This document shows positions 3,201 through 57,330 of a DNA stretch of 64,000 bases, in pieces (position 1 is the first letter of the stretch; each line of letters starts with the position of its first letter). The notes under the pieces were generated by a model. It did not search any database and had not been told where the DNA came from. It worked only from the letters and a program-made list of their open reading frames with translations. This stretch comes from Branchiostoma floridae (lineage: Eukaryota; Chordata; Leptocardii; Amphioxiformes; Branchiostomatidae): NCBI RefSeq assembly GCF_000003815.2, contig NC_049989.1, forward strand, positions 5,457,245-5,521,244, in the 5' to 3' direction. Both the position numbers and the translations under genes were made by a program.

Positions 3201-4488
3201 TGTAGTTATTGATAGACATCAAACATTGTAATGATTATAATGTGGTAAGACTGAACGTTGAATCCAAGACTGTATCGTGTATGGCCATGAACATGTTTAT
3301 AAGACCCATAGAAAGGTCCCCCGCACATTGCTCTACAGTGTTAGATGATCTTAGATCGCAATGTCTTTTTACTCTTTTAGCACATATGAAATGAACAGAC
3401 GCAAGGAAATTCCTACATGCACCTGTGAGAACAAACAAACGCACCTGTCTACCTGTCTGTAGAGGGGTGACGCCTGTGGCGTTACTGACCGTGCTGCAAG
3501 TTGACACTGCCGTTGCTATGGATACAGGTACCGGACAGGGACCCGCCGAACACCGAAGGCTACGACGACCTGGCCCTCAATGCCGACACCAACAACCATG
3601 CCGATAAGTCCACTTGCTGATCCTTTACAGTCGAGAAATGATAGTTTCATTACTCAAAACCATTTGTTCAGGAGAAGCCCCGTTACGCGCGTTCGTGACT
3701 TATCGGTAGAACACGACACGCCCCAAACGTGGCTTCGCAAGTCAGCTTTTGAATTTCTTGCCTATGTATAACAATTATGACGAATCCAAAAACCAGAACG
3801 TTTAAAATTTAAAGAGAATGAAACATTCTTTTTAGTCTTCAATTAGCAATTGCTTTTGATTCTTTTCCAGATTACTTACTTACTAAATGCAAATGGCCGA
3901 TTCCCTGTCGCTGCTGTAGTCGCTGATGTGCATCACAAGAGTTCTGTGGGCCAGAGTGACGCCCTGGTCGGGAAGAAAGCTGTTACTGCAACGTTTAGTA
4001 GAATGTGGAAAAGGGTTGGACAAGGGCAGATTTGATCAGAAGGGTCGACATGTAGCCTCTTACCATGCTCCACAGGAAGTGTAGGAGTGTTCATTGGCAA
4101 CCTTGGCCGGCTACACCCCTTTGTCATCTTTTGATGCTATCTTTAATATGCAACCGAAGGAACTGCTTGGAGATTACAATGTTGTAGTTATTTCTACGGA
4201 ATGTATTTTCTTGGTATAGATACATACCGAGTTCAGAACACTCTCCGTTATATAGAGAACCACGAAATACGCGATTTTGCCAGCTGGTGCCACGTCTGGG
4301 ACATACCACTCCAGCATGTAGAAGGGGACCGCGGCCAGAGAACAACCGAGAATCCTGGATAAAGACAGTCAAGCTTTTCATCACCTTCATTTAGTTGGGA
4401 TCCATGAATACATTTGCACATAGATACAGCATGCCGTTTTTTTGCAAAGCACTATGGGTAAGGGGGCGAAGTCCCCCCTCTCTCACTC

Positions 4489-4568
<80 letters not shown>

Positions 4569-9446: not shown

Positions 9447-12400
9447 ATGAATATGATGATTCCTGCTGACGCCTCTCGAGCGACAGGCGGTCGCTGTGTG
9501 AAGGCTCTGCGGTGGATCGGCTGTCTGATAGCACTGGTCGGCATCATGATATCGGTGGCTGTGGTGATCATGACGGGCATGCAGAGCGAGGAGGGGATAC
9601 GGTTTCCGGGAGAGGGACTGCTTCTGCTGTTCGTCGGAGTGGCACTTGTTTTACTGAGTCTGTGTTATACTTCATACTCTCCCCACGGCACAGAGAGAAG
9701 GCGGCAGAACTCTGTATTGAATACGAACATTGACCAACCACCCTCGTACTGGGAAGTCTGCGACTTAAGGTAGGCATACAGTGTGCTGTGTGTGTATCAT
9801 ATGTCCTGTCTGTCTGTGGAGTTACTATATAAAGATACCAGTTTGTGTGGCTGGGTCAGAACGGGTCATTTCAGTTGACTACACGACAATCTAGAAATGT
9901 CCTCTAATAAAACAGTTTCGTTATAACCTGACATACCCAAACTGTTAGGCTAGAGTTTTTAACGTTACTTAATTAAGCAGGTTAAAAACTGGGCTCTCAT
10001 CGGTTCTTGCGTTAAAGCATTCTGCCTAATACTAGGACTTTTACCAGAATGACAAGGCATATGAAAGGTACCATAAAAGTTGACAATGAAGCCGGAATAT
10101 GAGCGGAAATTTTGGTTTCGTCTAGTATGTAACGTTACATGGATGTCGGACGTTGACCACTGTGTTTTCCCCAGCTTAAAACTTCCGCCTGACGTCGTTT
10201 GTACCTGAGTCACTGTCTGTGGTCTACCATGCATGAAAGAATAACAACGTTGCGGTATTTCTTCCTGGTAGTACACGCTTTAAATGTTCAATGTAATTAC
10301 GTTACTGGGCAAGAATATTGTCATGTCGTGGTACGAAATGTACACTTTAACCATGTATATGTGAACCTCTGTCAGACCTTTAGTGTGCGTACGTAGGTGT
10401 ATTCCGATGTACACCTGTCGGAACATGCACTATTTGCAAAAGGGCGGTGTTGTTTTTACCCTCTGTTAGCTTTCGTAACAATGTACGCGGCATTCAGTGG
10501 CAGATGCATCGTCATTACATCACTGTGAATCTTATAAAGGACGTTGACCTACTTAAAAATCGGTTACTTCATTTTCCTGTTCTCAAAACCTTGAATTGTC
10601 TTGAACAACAAATGTTACGTATTGTATTTAGGCCAGGCAAGTTTTCTCAGACTTAAACCTTTTTCGTTGTGCCTACGTGAGTTTGTACCTGTCCGCGATG
10701 TCGCTAGATTAGATCTCGGCCCAGTGAATACTAGTGTGTGACGTCAATGTTTTGTTAGAAGTGCCCGAAGCGCTCACGACAAAAACACATACAGACCGCA
10801 ACTGCCATATTTACCCGTGGTTGCGTGATATGCCAGGGCCTCTAACCAGCAGGTTGTTTGTTTGGCGACAGTTGGTATTGGTTTTCTTCGCCTGACCGAG
10901 GAGTTTTTAAAAGAACTGAGCCCCAAAGTCAGACCCGTCTTACCTGAGTCCCATTCACGTCCTTCCAAGCGTTAACACCAGTTATAAGTGGTGCAGTCAA
11001 CTTAGCACTTAGTTATATTTTAACACCCGTTGGGCTGCTCTATTGTAGAGCAGAATGTCACTTGAGACAAGTGACATTCTTTCTTCACTTATGCCACCCT
11101 TCCCTACTTGTGTTGCTGACAGACGGTCTTTCTTGCGAATTGGTGCAAGGCTCTTTGTATACACTGAGAATGGCAAAACTATAGGCAGTAAAATTTTCTA
11201 AGAATTTTTGCTTTGTCATGAAAAGGCAAGGACTTTGTTCACGCCTGTTATGGACCATGAATTGTTTACGGATAGATGATCTGGGAGACAGACAGGTGTG
11301 CAAACTATAAGTATGCCTGAGGCCACATGTTGTTTATAAACGGTGTCGATAAGACCTTGATTCCATATGATTTTTGTCAAGTCAATTGTGTCAAGCAAAG
11401 GTCTTCTTTTCCATGGTCAGCTTCCCTCGTTAATTTGACAATTGAACATATACTTAACGTTAATTCGCAAGATTCTGATAGCCCTTTGCCATACGCACGC
11501 CTTCTGTGCTTATGATGATTTATCCAATTATTGATCGGTTTATTGTTAATATCAATATCTGTGATGATGGTGTTATTCCCCTACCGATCGCGACGTTCTA
11601 TCGTGTACGAAATGCCACCATTTAATATCGATGTGAATGCCACACTTAAAACCGTGTAGTGGCACCACACCTCAAATCGTGCAATGGCACGTTTATACCC
11701 AAAATTCTTCCATTATCTGGATGACGTGAATGTCCATTTTCCAGGTACCGTCTTGTGATATATATTACACCAAGGCAAAACCTGCCATCTAAAGTGAGAG
11801 AGCCACACATGCATCTCATGGTCACATACTCCATCCCGCACTAGTCTCTGCCAGACTGTCTCTGCTAGGAGGAATAATTTGCCAGCAGAAGGTTTGGGCG
11901 GACGCCATAGGGGAATATGCTAACCTTAGCGTGGACTGACTCCCCTGGACAATTTTCCAATTCGAATTCCACGATCCCCGTACCCCCATAGGAAGGCCTC
12001 GTGGAAGCTACCCATAACCCTAGTTCACCTTTATTCGGGGTGTAACCTATTTGCGATGTATTAAAAAAGCAGACAGTATGTAGAGATATCAAGTCAGCGG
12101 TGGACGGTGGTTTCAGACTGCAATATTTTAAAAGTATTTTAAGCCACCACCCGTCGACTTGATATTCCCAAATACGCTGTTTTCATTAGATACAACGGAT
12201 ATAGGTGAACTAGTGTTACGCGTGCTAGATTAATCCGCACGTTGTAGCATGGCTTCCCGCGATTTGATAAACGAGCAGCCATGACAGCCAAGGCCAACTG
12301 CTCACCTCGCCTGTCGTGCAACGTGTATAACCGCACGTCAGCACCTAAGGAGGTGCCAAGTTCAACTGCTGTATAGCAGTGAAACTACGTTTTAGCGATC

Positions 12401-16413: not shown

Positions 16414-18495
16414 ATGTTTGCCGCACCTCTAACCGGCGGGGAGGCTGGCCAGGGCATGCCGACCCAGCGCCAGTGGAACGCCGTGCTCAGGCTTTTCGGG
16501 GCTATGATAGCCATGACCGGGGTAGCCGTGGCGATAGCCGTCATGGTCATGGCGAACAAGGACGAGGAAGAGAACCGTTTTCCCTGGGAGGGGGTTCTGT
16601 TGTTTTCGGTGGGACTTATCATGGTGTTGTTTAGCCTGTACTACACGGATCCGGAAGGGGGAGGGCGGAGAACATCCCAGTGTGTCGTCAGGAGAGAGTC
16701 TGACACGATGATAGACCAACCGCCAGCGTACTGGGAAGTCTGTGATCTTAGGTAAGAGTTCTTTGTGATTATTCGTTGTCAAGGAAGCCTACTGTCGATT
16801 TAAGTTGTCGACTTCACGAACTCAAAACAGGTATGATTTCTGAATGTTTACAGTTTACAAAGTCCTTGAAATCTGGGTGTAACGTTATAAACAATTCCTG
16901 TTAGTGTGCATGTTTTTGTCTTAGATTTTCAAGTCACGACATCTATACTAACGTTCAGTATATACGTTAGATTTGGTATTGCTTCTACCAACTGCCTTTC
17001 TTTTTAGTATGTGGTTATAGTACCTTCATAGTCATACACAGTCTCTTGCTGCCAGGCTCCTTGCTTGCTTGCTTATATTATGCGACCTTTCTTGACCGCA
17101 ATGCTTATCGTTTTAACAATGTCTTTGCAAGCATTGCTGATGTTTCACAATGAAACATCATATCTGGTACATCTCAGGAATGTATATATCTATGAGACTA
17201 TGACAAAGGCTTGATACGGTGTAAGGTCACAAGATACAAAACATGTTTTGTTTACAAAAGGCACGATGTGAACTTTGACCCGATTTGCACTGCATGCGCT
17301 ACACTCTGGACTATTCCATCTAAGATATTCGTGTGGGGTGGGGGTGTAAATGTGGAGATTTACTATCTTACAACAAAGAGCCTTGCTCATAATGATAGAC
17401 ACGACAAAATATTTTGATATGTTGGAGTAGCTAGTGGGGTATTCACTGCATCAAGGTAAACGAAACGTAAGAATGGTGCCGCGGACGGGCATGTTTTTGA
17501 GTGACTATTACTAGGGCGTGAACTGAAGTGGTAACTTTATAGATGGTTCGTCTAGACAGGGCCACCCACCCGAACCATAAATACACAAATTGACAGTCAT
17601 TGCCAAGGGGTTGGCCAATAATGATCTTGTAGGGATTCAAATGGTAGAGGCAGTGTCTCAGAAAAACAATGGACAAAATAACTGAAAGGGTGGTATGCGT
17701 TTGTATTTGAGATGGATATTATAGCAGATCGTCGGTTGAAATAAAAAGAAAATATTGCATTGTAAAATATGAATGCTTCCCTCCCTAAACGACCAATCCT
17801 GGGTCACCCCCAACGTGTATCATTTACGCGCGTAGCTGCACGTCGCCCATGCAGCTGCGTCACGTGCTGTTCAGGGCTGCCAACTCTCCAAGCAGATGTA
17901 ACATGTTTGTTCTGACGGCTTTGCTTTGTGCTGCACGCGGCTAAACGATCGGTTGAAAATATGACACCTGAATATGAAACTGAATATACGATTGAGAAAT
18001 CTTGTAACTGATATTGATGCTTAAGTAATGTTGCAATGCAGTGCGCTTAATTAATCTTTACATTGAATCTTTACCTTGAACCACAGCCAGTCGATACCCT
18101 ATTGGGTAATAAGGCTGTCCAATAATATTAATATTGAAGAAGGAAGTTCAAAACTAAAAGCTTCCCATTGACTATCCCATCTCAGGTTTGCATAGAGTTA
18201 TTTCAAGGTATTCCATAGAGTATTTCAAGGTGTTCCAATTTCCACACGCAGTGGTCCCCCACCGGACTACTTAGAACCGACGTCGGTGACGTCAGGCAAT
18301 GGCGAGATCGTGGTCACCATCACAAGAGTCAAGTCCACTCCGCCCTCAGCGGCCGCCGTAGACTCCGCAGCGGTGAACATAGAGGAGCCATGCCGACAAC
18401 AAGACGAAGAGGAACCGGACGAGCCGCTACCGTCGTACGAAGATGTCGTAACGTTAGAAGAGAACGAAAGAAGAGATAGAACGTCCTCTGTATGA
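16414..18495 (+). CDS. Small two-helix membrane protein with PPxY and LPxY tail motifs, paralogue B
   Basis: Exon 1 is 16414-16751, exon 2 is 18252-18495 (582 bases, 193 residues), phase-2 GT-AG intron at the same place as in paralogue A. Two hydrophobic segments (about residues 25-46 and 60-77) are separated by a KDEEENRFPWEG loop that matches the SEEGIRFPGEG loop of A. Exon 1 ends in DQPPAYWEVCDL, almost identical to A. Exon 2 differs: it opens with a further PPPDY motif, then a longer acidic tail, ending with LPSYEDVV and a charged C-terminus. With three PY-type motifs this protein offers more WW-domain contacts than A. A TMEM51-like membrane adaptor role is possible. A 540-bp element is inserted 29 bases after the stop codon, in the 3' UTR. 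Confidence 0.78.
16752..18251 (+). other. Intron of paralogue B
   Basis: 1.5 kb. No further exon supported. Near 17885 there is a CTCTCCAAGCAGATG block like the transposon terminal motif noted at 25846. Confidence 0.6.
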
Positions 18496-18515: not shown

Positions 18516-18524
18516 CAGATTTAG
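18516..18524. repeat. 9-bp target site duplication, left copy
   Basis: CAGATTTAG, repeated exactly at 19065-19073 on the other side of the inserted element. Confidence 0.85.
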
Positions 18525-19064
18525 TAGTCTCTACCAGACTCGGGGGGGTGCAGATCCCTCGATGGAGACCTGTGGGTATGTGTGTTTCCTGTTTTTGTCT
18601 TTCCTGTGTTTTTTTTTCGTTGTCTTTGCTGTGCTGTGTGTCTTGTGCTGTTTCGTGTGTGTGTCTGGGTCTTTGGGTGTGGTCTCCTCCGTCCCTCCGG
18701 GGTCGGTGTGTTTCCTGTGCGTTGTCTTTCCTTGGGTGGCGGCCTTGTCTCTGTGTGTTCTTGTGGTTTTCCTTGCTTCCTCGTGTTGGCTCGTTGGGTT
18801 TGTGTGTCGCTTTCCCTCGCGTGTTGGTTGGCTTCCGGTCGTCCTGGCGCTCCTTCGGCTTCGGTCTGTGGTTTCTCCTCCCTTGCTGGCGGGTTCTGTG
18901 TCCGTGTGCTGCGCTCCCTGTGGGCGCCCTCCCTGTTGGCTGCCTGGTTGTCCCGGCCTTGTTCCGCCCTTGTTCCCTGGCCGGCTTCCCTCCTCTTGCC
19001 GGCTTTCTCCTCTATTTGTTCCATTTCTACGGTTTTCCGGCGACCCGGAGTCTGGTAGAGACTA
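18525..19064. mobile_element. 540-bp non-autonomous DNA transposon with an adenine-free core
   Basis: Perfect 17-bp terminal inverted repeats (TAGTCTCTACCAGACTC at 18525-18541; reverse complement at 19048-19064) are flanked by identical 9-bp CAGATTTAG copies, as expected of a cut-and-paste insertion. A 9-bp duplication is typical of Mutator-like elements, but the family was not identified. The core, 18579-19013, has no A on the plus strand, so no stop codon, ATG, AG acceptor or AATAAA can occur in that sense, and the minus strand has no T. The overlapping open frames of 158-197 codons on plus and 167 on minus are a by-product and are not claimed as genes. No transposase is present, so movement would need enzyme supplied in trans. 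Confidence 0.85.
18579..19013. other. 435-base run without adenine on the plus strand
   Basis: Read base by base: the last A is at 18578 and the next at 19014. The sequence is a mixed, non-repetitive text of T, G and C, not a simple repeat. A short internal duplication is visible: GTTTCCTGT followed by TTGTCTTTCCT-type sequence near 18583 and again near 18709. Confidence 0.95.
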
Positions 19065-19073
19065 CAGATTTAG
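19065..19073. repeat. 9-bp target site duplication, right copy
   Basis: CAGATTTAG, identical to 18516-18524. Confidence 0.85.
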
Positions 19074-19470: not shown

Positions 19471-20001
19471 NNNNNNNNNNNNNNNNNNNNNNNNNNNNNN
19501 NNNNNNNNNNNNNNNNNNNNNNNNNNNNNNNNNNNNNNNNNNNNNNNNNNNNNNNNNNNNNNNNNNNNNNNNNNNNNNNNNNNNNNNNNNNNNNNNNNNN
19601 NNNNNNNNNNNNNNNNNNNNNNNNNNNNNNNNNNNNNNNNNNNNNNNNNNNNNNNNNNNNNNNNNNNNNNNNNNNNNNNNNNNNNNNNNNNNNNNNNNNN
19701 NNNNNNNNNNNNNNNNNNNNNNNNNNNNNNNNNNNNNNNNNNNNNNNNNNNNNNNNNNNNNNNNNNNNNNNNNNNNNNNNNNNNNNNNNNNNNNNNNNNN
19801 NNNNNNNNNNNNNNNNNNNNNNNNNNNNNNNNNNNNNNNNNNNNNNNNNNNNNNNNNNNNNNNNNNNNNNNNNNNNNNNNNNNNNNNNNNNNNNNNNNNN
19901 NNNNNNNNNNNNNNNNNNNNNNNNNNNNNNNNNNNNNNNNNNNNNNNNNNNNNNNNNNNNNNNNNNNNNNNNNNNNNNNNNNNNNNNNNNNNNNNNNNNN
20001 N
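19471..20001. other. Assembly gap (531 N)
   Basis: Unbroken N. Reading frames drawn across it have no meaning. Confidence 1.
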
Positions 20002-23065: not shown

Positions 23066-23158
23066 AACTAATGATAATCAGTGTCGTCAGAAGAGCCGAA
23101 AGGAACCAGTAAAACTAATGATAATCAGTGTCGTCAGAAGAGCCGAAAGGAACCAGTA
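23066..23158. repeat. Tandem duplication of a 47-bp unit
   Basis: The block beginning CTAATGATAATCAGTGTCG occurs at 23068 and again at 23115 with essentially no differences, so the duplication is recent. Confidence 0.9.
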
Positions 23159-23284
23159 AGTTGGATAACGGTACGTATTTACGACCTGTTGATTTGTTGT
23201 CTAGTATACGTGTATTATTCATTTGTAACTTATAATTAACTGACCAAGAATTCACGAATTGGTATTTCGGAAGGGACGTAAAAT

Positions 23285-23983: not shown

Positions 23984-26900
23984 ATGAACCGTACTGATAT
24001 CGACGGGAACTTCTCCACGACCAACGGCACAGACGAGACCGCCTTGGTCATCTCCACGGCCGAGAAAGTCGTGGAGATCTCCCTCTTGGCGCTGGCCTTC
24101 TTCTTTGCCTTCTGCGGGAACTTGCTGGTTTGGGTGAGCGTCCTCTGGAAGCCCAACCTCCGCAAGGAGACGGCTAACTACCTGATCCTGAGCCTGAGTG
24201 CGGCGGACATGACGGTAGCTGCCTTCAACCTACCGTTCACGATGTCGGCCGTGGCGCGGGGAGACTGGGTGCTGGGGGACGGTGTCTGCACCCTGCTCGG
24301 CTTCACCAACATGATCACGTTCGTGGCCTCCGTCATGAACCTCGCCGCCATCGGCGTCAACCGGTTCTGCATCATCGTCCACTACTCCAAGTACCCGACT
24401 TACTTCGACAAGAGAGGAACAGCCCTCACCATCACCGGTAAGTGGGCGTTAGTTGAAGCAAAATCTTTCAAATGGCTGCGTTTTCTTACTTACTACAGTT
24501 AAAAGGGAGCAGATTATCATTGCACTGAGAAGAGCACTTGCACAAACGCTTGTAGCCTCTTGCAGCTTGAACTTATATACTAGTAGCTGATATTTTGTGA
24601 ATAACGTCTCTGGTACTCAACGAATCATATTGACCCCCAGCGGGAGTCTTCACACCTCGTTGAAAATCGAAAAATCTTGAGATTTATTCCAAAAATCTTC
24701 AGATTTTGTGTTAAATCTTGACATGTTTTGAGTCTATCTTGAGATTTTTCATGAGAATCTTGAAATCTTTTTCGTCTCAAGATTCTTTGAAAAGATCTCA
24801 AGATTTTTCTAGTCCCCTTGAAAGCATCTCAAGATGCTTCTGATAAATCTCAAGATGCAAAATGTTTCATCTCAAAATGTATCTTTGTGTTGAATTTTCG
24901 CTATATGGGCTTTCTCTCTCAACTCCCTTCAAGTAATCGTCTTGCTACCACTGCCACACAGCAGGAAAATCGACCAGCCTACCAGTCTGTGATCTCTAAA
25001 TGACATTTTCGTTATCATACTAGTAATGCGCCCGGTGTCCTCCCGATCATCACGCGATTTTTAGGGATAAGCCGATGACGTGAGCAGGTAAACGAGCCCC
25101 GTAAATATGTTAGGGTGGATTTTCAGACAAGACCGGTCAGGCATTTTGCGGAGAGTTTTAATTAGTTTTAAGATTTAAAAGACAACATAAAACACAAATA
25201 TACAAAACTTAGAAATTATATTTCTGCAATGTTTGTTCTTTTCCTCAAAAAGCTCGGCCGAACCTCGGGTTTGAAGCATGACCCTGGCATTACAGATACC
25301 CATCTTAGTTCAGTACTAGTGATGGTCCGCCCTCACGAACGGATGCTATTTCTAGAGTGGAGCAAAGCTCGCCAAGGACTTCCAAAACCGAACAAATGTT
25401 AATCAGATTACTATTGTATTTTTACTTGTCATCGTTGCCATGGACTCATCTAAGATATCGTGCGTGGGTTCTTCAGCCTATAAGGTCTGATTACTGGCAC
25501 TTATCCTGACCTTTGGAGAAGGGATTGTTTTTGTACTAACCGTCTCCAAGGAGCTTAGCTTTATGCATGTGGGGATGATTGCTACAGCCTCTATTGACAT
25601 TTTGTTGCGCATTCAAACCACACAATCGACGACAATTTTGAACACGTGCGTATATTCACATACGACCTAGATAAATCTTGTGCTCGAGTCGTCAGAAGAT
25701 TGATCTATAAATTTCTGAAGGTAAGATGAAAGAGGCAATCGAGTTTAAAAATGCGGCTCATTGGTGTAACAATCTAGCCTCTATCAGGCTCCTTATGTCG
25801 CTGGAAATTAAAGGAATTGGCCAAATAGATTTTAGATATATAACATAATCTCCAAGCAGATCTTGCGGTGGCATAAGATAGTATCATGAGCTGGGGAAGA
25901 AGTTTAGCCGGCAGAGCAGTTTCATTGGCCACCTCTTCCGGCTAAACTTCTTCGAGTTCTTCCCCAGCTTATGATACTATCTTATGCCATCGCAAGATCT
26001 GCTTTGAGATTAATATAACACAGTACCAGAGGAGTTGGTCGGCCCCAAATGACGCTATCCCAGTGTCGCAAACTGTAGGACATCTCTTCTGGTGTGTTAT
26101 TTTATCTATTTATTTGGTCAATGTCCACTACTTCCAGCGACATGTGGAGCCTGTCTGAGGCTGGCGCTTGCAGGTAGGATGTCAGAATATCCAGTTGGTC
26201 CGGATCACATTAGGGTAACACATGAGCGACAAAATGTCATTGGTCATTAAGATTACGGAAATATCAACCACAGACATTGCAGATCGTTCAGCTCTGACTG
26301 AACGACAGTTGAGAGATTTTTCAAATTATCAAATGTTAAATTTTGTTCTCCTTGGCCTCGCCTCTACGGAAAACCTAATGAAGTAGGTACGTGTGATCTA
26401 CATTAGGATCATACAGCATGCCGGATGGGTGGTAGAAGTAATACGTTCTTCGTGCAGTTGTGTGTGACTTAAATTGGGTGTACTGTCGAAGCAGAGGTTA
26501 GCCTCCGGCTTGTTTTGGATCAATGTCTATGCATTGTTCTAGGACTCTCTACTCATCACGCTTAAATATTTCCCTGATCGGAGAGTGAATTAATCGTAGT
26601 CCTAAACACACATATATGGATATCTATAGGTATGTATAAGTCAACATATTGGATCTAGCATGTTATTTACACTATTGGTTCTACGGTATAAACATTCGTG
26701 GATATATTTGCCAACTTAAGCTTGTACACAGTAAGGGCTATCGCCTCCCAGAATGAAGTTAAATTTATCTATCGAACAGAGAGTAGCAAATTCATTAGAG
26801 CAAGCGGAAAGTAATGTGAACAGCTCTGTGCGTTTGTCATTATATCGTGAACAATCCATAACAAAGTGACGTTCGTCTTAATGAACCATTGTTGATGACT

Positions 26901-28971: not shown

Positions 28972-29825
28972 TTACTTTACTGACAATAATATATTTGTAT
29001 ATATCATCACCACCTAATATATAACATACCTTCTTCAGATGAACATAAAACCCTCAACTCTATTTTTCAACTAAAACTTCATTTCAATCAATCAATAAAT
29101 CATTCTATTGTTAACCTTATCAATAATTATGAATGTGTAATAGGTAACGAACACGGATCATTACATATCATACGATAATCAATATCGTTCACATTCACTG
29201 GTAGGCGCGAAGAATGACTTTGTGTCTGAACTGTGAATGAAATTAGTCAATAATGGAACTAATTAACTGATCAATCAACCGATCAATCGATCACCATCTG
29301 AAGAATGAACATGTTCGACCAGGCCGGAGTCTTGTTGAGACTAACATGTATCACGAGCTACAAACATGTTCAACCAGCCCTAACCAATTAACTGCTTCGA
29401 CATCATTCTCGCCTCCCGGCATATTGGTAAACTCAGACGCACCAAACATTGCCACCATAGATGGTTCGCCTTCAAGCAGATCATTGCTGAACCTCAGCAA
29501 GTTATAGCTATATATCATATCTTGATCAATCATATTGTCAATAGATTAATCAGCACAGTCGATTAGTTAATGTTCTACCCTTAGTGTCTAGCTCTCTACG
29601 TTAGGGTTGCCTCCGCGGTCAGTCATCTTCGCACGGATGCAGGCATGAAATTAATTCAACAGGATGGCTATCGTTTCTTTTATAGCCTCATTCACAGCCT
29701 TTTGAGAGCGCTTAGTACGTTTATTGCAGACATGGCATAAGAGGCTGAACCATAAGTTGAAAATCGAATCAGTGCTTCTCAAAACGTAAACACCATCGCC
29801 CCTAGAAGGCTACAAAGATGTCTCT

Positions 29826-32900: not shown

Positions 32901-35900
32901 GAAACTTCTATTGGACACCCTTTCCCTTAAACATGTCGGAACACCACTTAACTCTCCAAACAGACTAAAGACAAACATGAAAAGTTCAGAAACACGGTTT
33001 GACGTTACATAAAGGGGAACCTGTTTTCGCCTTCAGACAAAAGAGTAGATATTAACGTGATTTGTGGCAGAGAGGGACGACAGGCTATGTAGCAATTGAT
33101 GTCGAGTTGTGTTTTATTATTTGATAAAACGACCACTGTCCTTGGTTACATAAGTGATATCTACCCAGTTAATTGAATTTTCGTCGTAAAATCTAATATC
33201 ACACTGTGTTATACATGAAGTAGGCTGGCCATTTAAGGTTTGGACAGGACAGCATGCCAGAATAACAATTACTCAAGCAGCTAGGGTATAGTTTAGGTAT
33301 TATTAGGTAACTTCTGTTTGGCATATCTTATTTCCTGGATGTCTAACCTTCATCGACGTAGACAGGACAATATATGGTGAAAATCGGCTTTTCTACGGCG
33401 TCATTTCGTTAAATCCTGGTCTTAAGTAATGAAAAGGGCAGTGACTTCCATATTATTTTTCAAAAATAGTGATTAGTACATGGAGACATAAGCCTTCTAG
33501 ACCAGACAAATGGTGCAAAGAACATTGCCAGAAGTATATAACGGCATGACAGGGTGATGAGTATTATGGGATGCCCTGAAACAGAGTACTCTGTATTTAA
33601 AGTGAGCGATAGGAAAAAGGCTAAAACACGATGAAATTCTCCTTTGCCACTCCGCATCACGAATGTAGGAGACGTCCTACCAGCAATGGGCTTTCCAACG
33701 AGATACGACACGCAACGGATTTACTAGTGCTCGGCTTGCGTCAGAAAAAGTCTAATCCAAGATTAGAGTCCACTACATTTGCAAATCACACGGCAATCTC
33801 ATAATTCTATAAATGACAGTACACATTTCTTGGAACAGATGATAAACAATGAATGATAAACGCCAGCCACATTATGAGTACTTCCACACGGATGACATGT
33901 TTAGCCACTTAACAGCACATTTACGTGTCCAATGGGCAGGAAAAAACACACGCAAGATCTGAAGTACGCAGAACAACTCTCTTCGTCTGAAACGCTCCCC
34001 AGGCGAAGTGAAAACACCCGTGATCAATATATTCCCACATTGTTCGGCACGTTTTTTTTCCGTGAGTCGAAAACACATTAGAGACATCGGCCCGCCCGGG
34101 CTTTCAACAACAAAGCCTCTCTCCATTAGGCCAACTCACGTAGAATAACGGTTCAATCTAACCTATGAACAGTCTGAACAGCCTAATGTACAAAGGGCCC
34201 TATAGGGACGCTATGCCGAGACATATTTTCCTCATGACATCAATTCGAGCCCGCTGGAGAGTTTTCGTCTGCGTTGAAGTACTAGGTGTTACAATAAAAG
34301 TCATATTGTCAAGTTTGTGCTCTCGTGTGGTTGCCTTCCATTAAAGAGAAAAGTTTTCTCATTGCTCTAAGCGGTCGAGCATTGTTGCAAAGATGCGTAT
34401 CCATGCACATTGAAAAAAAAACGCTGAAAGTTTCTAAAAGTTTCGCTCCCTTCTCGCGACGATTGTAAGCCTTCTGTTTTGTCACTTATGGCGAGTCTCC
34501 ACCAGACTGACTATGCTGGTTACTATAGGGAGAATAATTCGCGAATATTTTGCTACCAGAGGAGTTGGTCGGCCGCGCAGGGGAAACATGAACCTAAGCG
34601 TGGATTGACTCCTTAGCCAATTTCCCGATTTTTTGGCCTCATTTTACGATCCCCGTAACCCCGTAGAAAGGCCTGGTGAAGGCTAACTTACGGCCTAGAA
34701 ACTAATTTGTCCTCCGCAGAAAATTGATATGTCAGGTTTCGTATACCACAATCTACGCCGTGATTTGACCTTTGCATGTAATATGAGTCAGGCCCGAGAA
34801 ACACATCATCCCAGCGTGTGGACAAGAAATCTAGATCGTCTCTACTACACAGAACATGTTCCAATTACATCGTTACATTAGGAGTGCACTAATATGTCTG
34901 CTCTTATGTTTATAGCTATAGTTGAAGAGGTCACCACGTACATGGCATCAAAAGAAATTGAAGGCAAGATATCAAAAGAACTTGAATAACGGAAAGTATG
35001 CTTAAAGGAATTACAGCAATAGTCTTAATAGTTTATCTTAATTGTACCCTGGAGGGATTGGGCTATTAAGGATGCATTGATTCTGTAACCGCTACCGTAT
35101 GGGTTTCATTCTGGGAATTTCTAATAAATAAAAAGATAAATAAAAAAAAAGAACATGGTCGACCCATTCTGCGCAGCCGACAGTGGGCTCTTTTCATTTT
35201 TTTCCATCCAGTATGTTTCATCTCAAGCTATGTCTTGCACATGGGGGGCTCCCAGAAAAGCCACTTTAGAGTTTTGCATTATCAAGAAGAGGTTTGCAAC
35301 ATCAGAAAAGCAGGTTGATTTGTGCCCACAGCTCAGGTATCTCTCTAGCTTTCTAAAGGCAAACATGGTCATGCTATTAACCATTTTCTATTACGCTCTA
35401 GGAGCCGACCGTGGGATCTTTCAACCCTTTTCTTTTTGTTTCAACCAAGATTTTTCATCTCAAGATCTGACGCAGGCATCACACTTAATGTCTTTATTGT
35501 TTCCAACCCCGTATTGACATAAACCCCAATAACGTCACTAATATTCTTCTCTTATGTCTTGCACATGGGCTCAGAGAAAATCCACTTTAAAGTTTTGCAT
35601 GATCAATGCGCGGTATGTTTTGTTGTGACTTTAAAGGCCATGTGCGGCTTCAAGTTGCCATTGCATTGTGACGTTAGTATGGGTATCAAGAAGACGGGAA
35701 AATGATGGGTATTGCAATTGGATGTTGGGTGTATATAGTCATACTACTTCTTTACTTGGGCCATTTTATTGAGATCAAAGTTATAGGCGTGAAAGGTAAA
35801 GCACTTTTAAGAAGATTGCATACGTGCCAGACGACATGTGGTCAAATTAATCAAGCACATGAGAGATGACATGGAACTAAGATAAAAGGAACGTGGTGAA

Positions 35901-57059: not shown

Positions 57060-57330
57060 CTATTCACACCGCACCATCTCACGTGTGGCGGGTTCTTTAA
57101 CGTGCCTGGGGTATGGCTCTCCCCAGACACGGGACCTCCATTTAACGTCCTATCTGAGGGACGGCCCTAGCACAAGCTAGGTACTCATTTTCACCTGAGT
57201 TAAGTGAGGAAAGTCGTGTTAAGTGCCTTTCCGAAGGGCACAAGATCGGTTACACGGCAGTGGGGATTCGAACCCACGACCTCTCGGTCACGGGCCGAAC
57301 ACGCTGCCGCTGCGCCACGCGGTCCCACAG
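57060..57330 (-). mobile_element. Near full-length tRNA-derived SINE
   Basis: Read on minus: head GACCGCGTGGCGCAGCGGCA with B box GGGTTCGAATCCC (57262-57274 on plus), body TGTGCCCTTCGGAAAGGCAC and ACTTTCCTCACTTAACTC, then GAGTACCTAGC, GATAGGACGTTAAATGGAGG and GGCACGTTAAAGAACC blocks. It is the most complete of the SINE copies here and explains the body fragments at 23.3 and 54.0 kb. Confidence 0.75.

Follow-up and report, generated by a model that had tools for sequence, protein, structure and literature searches.

In a window of 64,000 nucleotides from Branchiostoma floridae (the whole stretch of DNA analyzed here, numbered from its first base), the plus strand is devoid of adenine over 435 consecutive bases (18579–19013), all of them inside a 540-bp transposable element (18525–19064). 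Where this run can be compared with relatives, adenines of the transposon family have been exchanged for other bases in this one copy. With a probability of about 0.5, we read the A-free run as a sequencing and assembly artifact inside a real transposable element.

The Element Enclosing the Run

Judged from its sequence, the host element is a nonautonomous inverted-repeat DNA transposon (MITE), with inverted ends, a target duplication, and many copies all found. Its left terminal inverted repeat (17 bp, 18525–18541, plus strand), in which adenines are normal, matches the right one (17 bp, 19048–19064, minus strand) at 17/17 bp and at 95% over 22 nt, and the two are flanked by perfect copies of a 9-bp target-site duplication, CAGATTTAG (18516–18524 and 19065–19073, plus strand). 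The genome searched comprises 513,431,437 bases in 431 contigs (largest observed, 35,335,272 bases), and at two or fewer mismatches the terminus matches it 3047 times in forward and 2923 times in reverse orientation, versus 51 and 44 times for a reversed control. Among 52 repeat pairs, some of them nested and the present element included, 22 carry a 9-bp target duplication (17 perfect and 5 with one mismatch). Many of the other pairs span 106 to 300 bp, and several family copies look by eye almost like palindromes. In 49 arms belonging to the same subfamily, conservation extends over about 105 bases.

The element thus resembles MITEs with 9-bp target duplications in being short and noncoding and in having inverted ends, a target duplication, and thousands of genomic termini. 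It differs from its own MITE family in that it agrees with it over 94 right and 17 left bases only, while its middle is single-copy and A-free. The part between the left terminus and the run (18542–18578, plus strand) is also single-copy and unlike the family arms, and it contains adenines. Target duplications of 8–11 bp characterize the Mutator-like (MULE) superfamily, and the 9-bp duplication of the present element falls within this range. A search for an autonomous MULE partner gave 27 MULE matches in the genome, and in the 8 of these 27 loci that were examined (about 3.3 kb each) no terminus occurred at three or fewer mismatches. Literature searches returned no match for four forms of the terminus sequence and no paper on LanceleTn. 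Four more copies of the terminus, with two to three mismatches, lie in the window at 11842–11858, 25775–25791, 29327–29343, and 34493–34509. A same-family repeat pair at another locus (L065, 58–595) encloses an interior that looks captured and is perhaps coding, and it is interrupted by a 100-N gap.

Extent and Composition of the Run

The sequence-only reading had claimed 435 consecutive bases without adenine, in text other than a simple repeat, with a chance probability of about 10^-54 under base independence. Direct counting in the window reproduces the extent of the run to the base (zero A; 122 C, 129 G, and 184 T), and, conditioned on the contexts and on statistics of the window itself, log10 P of finding no A is −64.7, −61.3, and −58.6 under Markov models of order 1, 3, and 5, i.e., about 10^-59 to 10^-65. 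The next-longest A-free run in the window measures 73 bases, and runs without one of the other three bases reach 99 at most (no G). Across 212,921 bases from other genome loci, some of them overlapping, the longest run missing one base measures 160 bases (a CTTTAA repeat without G), and A-free runs reach 94 bases at most, in TG-rich sequence. The window's second-longest A-free run stems from a CT repeat of 43.5 units at 4478–4564.

The run is likewise no simple repeat, since Tandem Repeats Finder reports only two short weak arrays within it and its complexity is mixed, the TG-rich left part excepted. Complexity is low in the left 145 bases, with 75 distinct 5-mers versus 91.7 (sd 7.4) in random three-letter text; the middle 145 bases are close to random text (103 versus 102.8), and the right 145 bases are slightly low (98 versus 104.6, sd 6.0). 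Relative to shuffles, CpG is depleted (P = 0.004) and TpG enriched (P = 0.001), beyond what a model of random replacement yields, and the TG-rich left part may contribute to this bias. A coding role was set aside: it has no standout phase bias in its favor, and the minus-strand frames across the run are open because that strand lacks T. Folding of the run gives a z score of −1.96, and 3 of 100 shuffles fold equally well.

Models that convert the adenines of window DNA uniformly into one base (G, C, or T) or into a neighboring base were rejected for wrong composition or neighbors (0/300 model stretches score as low as the run). Window DNA from which A is replaced at random or removed fits both the composition and the neighbors of the run.

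Fate of Adenines in the Right Arm

A genome search with the whole element aligned other copies starting no earlier than query base 436 and mostly at 447 (about 18971–19064), and among the 40 of 838 candidates scored these relatives of the right arm (18971–19064, plus strand) reach 96% identity in short pieces and up to 95% across the full 94 bases. The first 43 bases of this arm (18971–19013) lie inside the run. We compared them column by column with 79 aligned stretches from 59 loci, some places being counted twice. All three family adenines within the run are lost (3/3), those at 18987, 18989, and 19006 appearing here as T, C, and T, and only 1 of the 40 other sites is changed (18997, G to T) in an ungapped alignment. 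Past the run, nine family adenines are retained and one is changed to G (19039). The right edge of the loss falls within 8 bases, with A gone at 19006 and retained at 19014. The exact probability of 3/3 adenines among 4 changes in 43 sites is 3.2e-4, and the family's own variation at the three A columns gives 0.0018; both values compare the only three A sites shared between run and family and are partly conditioned on how the run is defined, since by that definition it stops on the right at the next A.

These losses are confined to a single copy. A 40-base arm form of the present element, allowing three or fewer mismatches, matches the present locus alone in the genome, and no other arm lacking all three adenines was found there at one further mismatch or fewer. 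The normal arm form occurs at 50 places at one or fewer mismatches, of which 49 keep all three adenines and 1 keeps two, in a pattern that tolerates at most one A loss. A property of the whole family was also rejected from the elements themselves: the longest A-free run in 49 other repeat pairs is 26 bases (the 52 pairs minus the present element and two with long N gaps, L054 and L065; among the 49 is a pair in L057 with 2 N at its edge). Because the adenines are changed and the copy is unique, we infer an in-place replacement of A by mixed bases that is limited to one copy, a pattern that argues against both A-to-G editing and a trait of the family.

The earlier suggestion that something removes A from one strand therefore stands for the 43 comparable bases (3/3 A sites versus 1/40 others), but three more specific readings lack support. 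A-to-G mutation conflicts with the replacements T, C, and T and predicts the wrong composition; an A-free state proper to the transposon family conflicts with the 50 normal arms and the lack, at one further mismatch or fewer, of any other arm without the three adenines; and selection on a three-letter molecule loses its footing with no second copy of the interior found. The same reading had proposed comparing copies collected by their termini, and the others carry normal A, which on its own terms points to an assembly or one-copy feature.

A genome search with 18542–18985 gave the element's own locus and two TG-rich stretches at 77–78% identity (3/3 candidates scored), so most of the run is without a relative. 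No parent copy with adenines appeared among these three candidates or in an A-blind alignment of the run to 81 loci and the window. The best A-blind scores, 46.2 and 49.8 against shuffle maxima of 43.8 and 40.6 (25 shuffles), belong to two loci (L062 and L063) that we rejected as parents, as they are TG-rich stretches fetched for resembling the run; the next-best scores, 39.6 and, in the window, 38.6, lie inside the shuffle range. Likewise, 131 arms compared with the part inward of 18970 and with 18542–18578 showed no resemblance beyond shuffles.

A Possible Sequencing and Assembly Artifact

As PMC7269912 describes it, the B. floridae genome was assembled with ARACHNE from about tenfold Sanger shotgun coverage of one animal, with haplotypes assembled apart, merged, and scaffolded; PMC7926999 puts the genome at 513.461 Mb, with nineteen chromosomes between 17.12 and 35.34 Mb in size. 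Of two B. floridae Ptch primers taken from PMC8709984, one had no match in the genome searched at two or fewer mismatches, and the other agreed at 20/22 bases with an open frame resembling Patched by eye (L102) and at 21/22 with a place that does not resemble it (L101), a weak test of the species; a GFP family search gave no match and has no bearing on it. We favor an artifact because the loss is complete, concerns one base only and one copy, and has a right edge of at most 8 bases, and because Sanger coverage is about fivefold per haplotype and a gap is nearby. This gap (531 N, 19471–20001) begins 457 bases past the run.

If so, the middle of the present copy would rest on one or very few Sanger reads, presumably where coverage was thin. 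In a faulty read the signal for A (or for T, if the opposite strand was read) would have been lost, perhaps with a whole channel, and the base caller would have filled each A position with a different base; the run would end where the faulty part meets other reads. The same replacement would probably have affected the remaining 392 bases, which lack a relative for comparison. The stretch between the left end of the run and the gap edge (19470) measures 892 bases, roughly the length of one Sanger read, and might represent a single read; alternatively, the 435 bases might be one trimmed read. The pattern resembles the failure of one dye channel in Sanger base calling in that one base is lost on one strand, spacing is unchanged, and the length is near that of a read. 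It differs in that such text is unusual in a finished consensus.

The distribution of gaps bears on this reading in both directions. In 79 other terminus-bearing loci, 8 of 10 gaps lie no more than 150 bp from a terminus (P = 5e-4, with overlapping gaps merged and overlapping loci unmerged), and two fall inside an element (L054 and L065). Against an artifact, gap density is no higher in the terminus loci (10 in 206,747 bases) than in 10 control loci (2 in 32,445). In simulation, a uniform fivefold depth leaves only 0.007% of 435-base windows on one read throughout, although for bases no more than 900 bp away from a gap the share resting on one read is 13%. The assembler would also have had to accept such a read. 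A literature search combining hairpins and Sanger gaps found no paper. The gap inside L054 (1022–1456) is 435 N long in another family copy, its equality with the length of the A-free run probably being coincidence.

Were the run an artifact, it would exemplify a type of error in a genome that serves widely as a reference for the study of vertebrate origins, placed beside a likely gene end and easily taken for biology. Long nonrepetitive runs without one base would then offer a simple screen for such errors.

Alternative Explanations

A possible but doubtful alternative is that the run is real DNA, a natural TG/TC-rich insert without A, partly microsatellite-derived or captured, lying beside an arm that lost three adenines by ordinary mutation. 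The low-complexity, TG-rich left third with its two matching stretches fits such an origin, as do the A-free TG-rich runs of up to 94 bases elsewhere in the genome, the longer interiors of some other copies that are unlike the common short form, and the intact ends and target-site duplication. However, the middle third is as complex as random text and the right third nearly so, and a repeat so decayed would be expected to have gained adenines. Three separate A losses would also be required in the arm, an outcome at odds with the variation within the family. A natural insert accounts for the TG-rich left part but not for the arm.

Less probable is an in vivo process that swapped every A on one strand over about 435 bases for mixed bases, such as error-prone synthesis while a gap was being repaired, or rewriting akin to that of diversity-generating retroelements (DGRs). 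The in-place, A-specific changes to T, C, and T with other bases spared are what such a process would leave, and replacing the adenines of window DNA at random gives text that fits the run. DGRs similarly replace A by mixed bases on one strand while the other bases stay; the present run differs in having no A at all and no template repeat found, and DGRs are not known from animals. More generally, known forms of error-prone synthesis and A-directed mutagenesis leave many adenines, whereas none survives in 435 bases here. Only one copy is affected, and neither the genome search nor the loci examined yielded a template or parent copy. In vivo erasure of A fits the pattern, but no known mechanism is so complete. 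That an animal germ line underwent such an event, with every A erased from one strand across some 435 bases of a transposon, mixed bases substituted, and the others left intact, is in our view quite improbable; it would amount to an adenine-directed rewriting of a kind not known from animals. If true, it would be the first known animal case of complete one-strand adenine replacement.

Finally, editing of A to I in a hairpin transcript or a strand of DNA, with the changes fixed as A-to-G, is barely credible: adenosine deaminases act on duplex RNA, which the nearly palindromic family copies could form, but their hypermutation turns A into G only, whereas the in-run replacements are T, C, and T, the sole A-to-G change (19039) lies outside the run, and G makes up 30% of the run versus the 50% expected from A-to-G conversion of window DNA, so that the bases found contradict editing unless the source had a very unusual composition.

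Genomic Neighborhood

An open frame on the plus strand (18196–18495, stop codon 18493–18495) is likely the last coding exon of a gene. A Pfam profile search of this frame gave no family above the cut-off, with TMEM51 below it at E = 0.027. The element starts 30 bases past the stop codon and would thus sit in the 3′ untranslated region. Just upstream of the element is a short repeat (about 18049–18120) with 39 other genome matches at 86–96% identity among those scored, and flank searches of the genome for a second haplotype gave only the element's own locus and this left-flank repeat. Elsewhere in the window are a perfect tandem duplication of a 47-bp unit (23066–23159) and a tRNA-Thr (CGT) gene on the minus strand (57251–57325).
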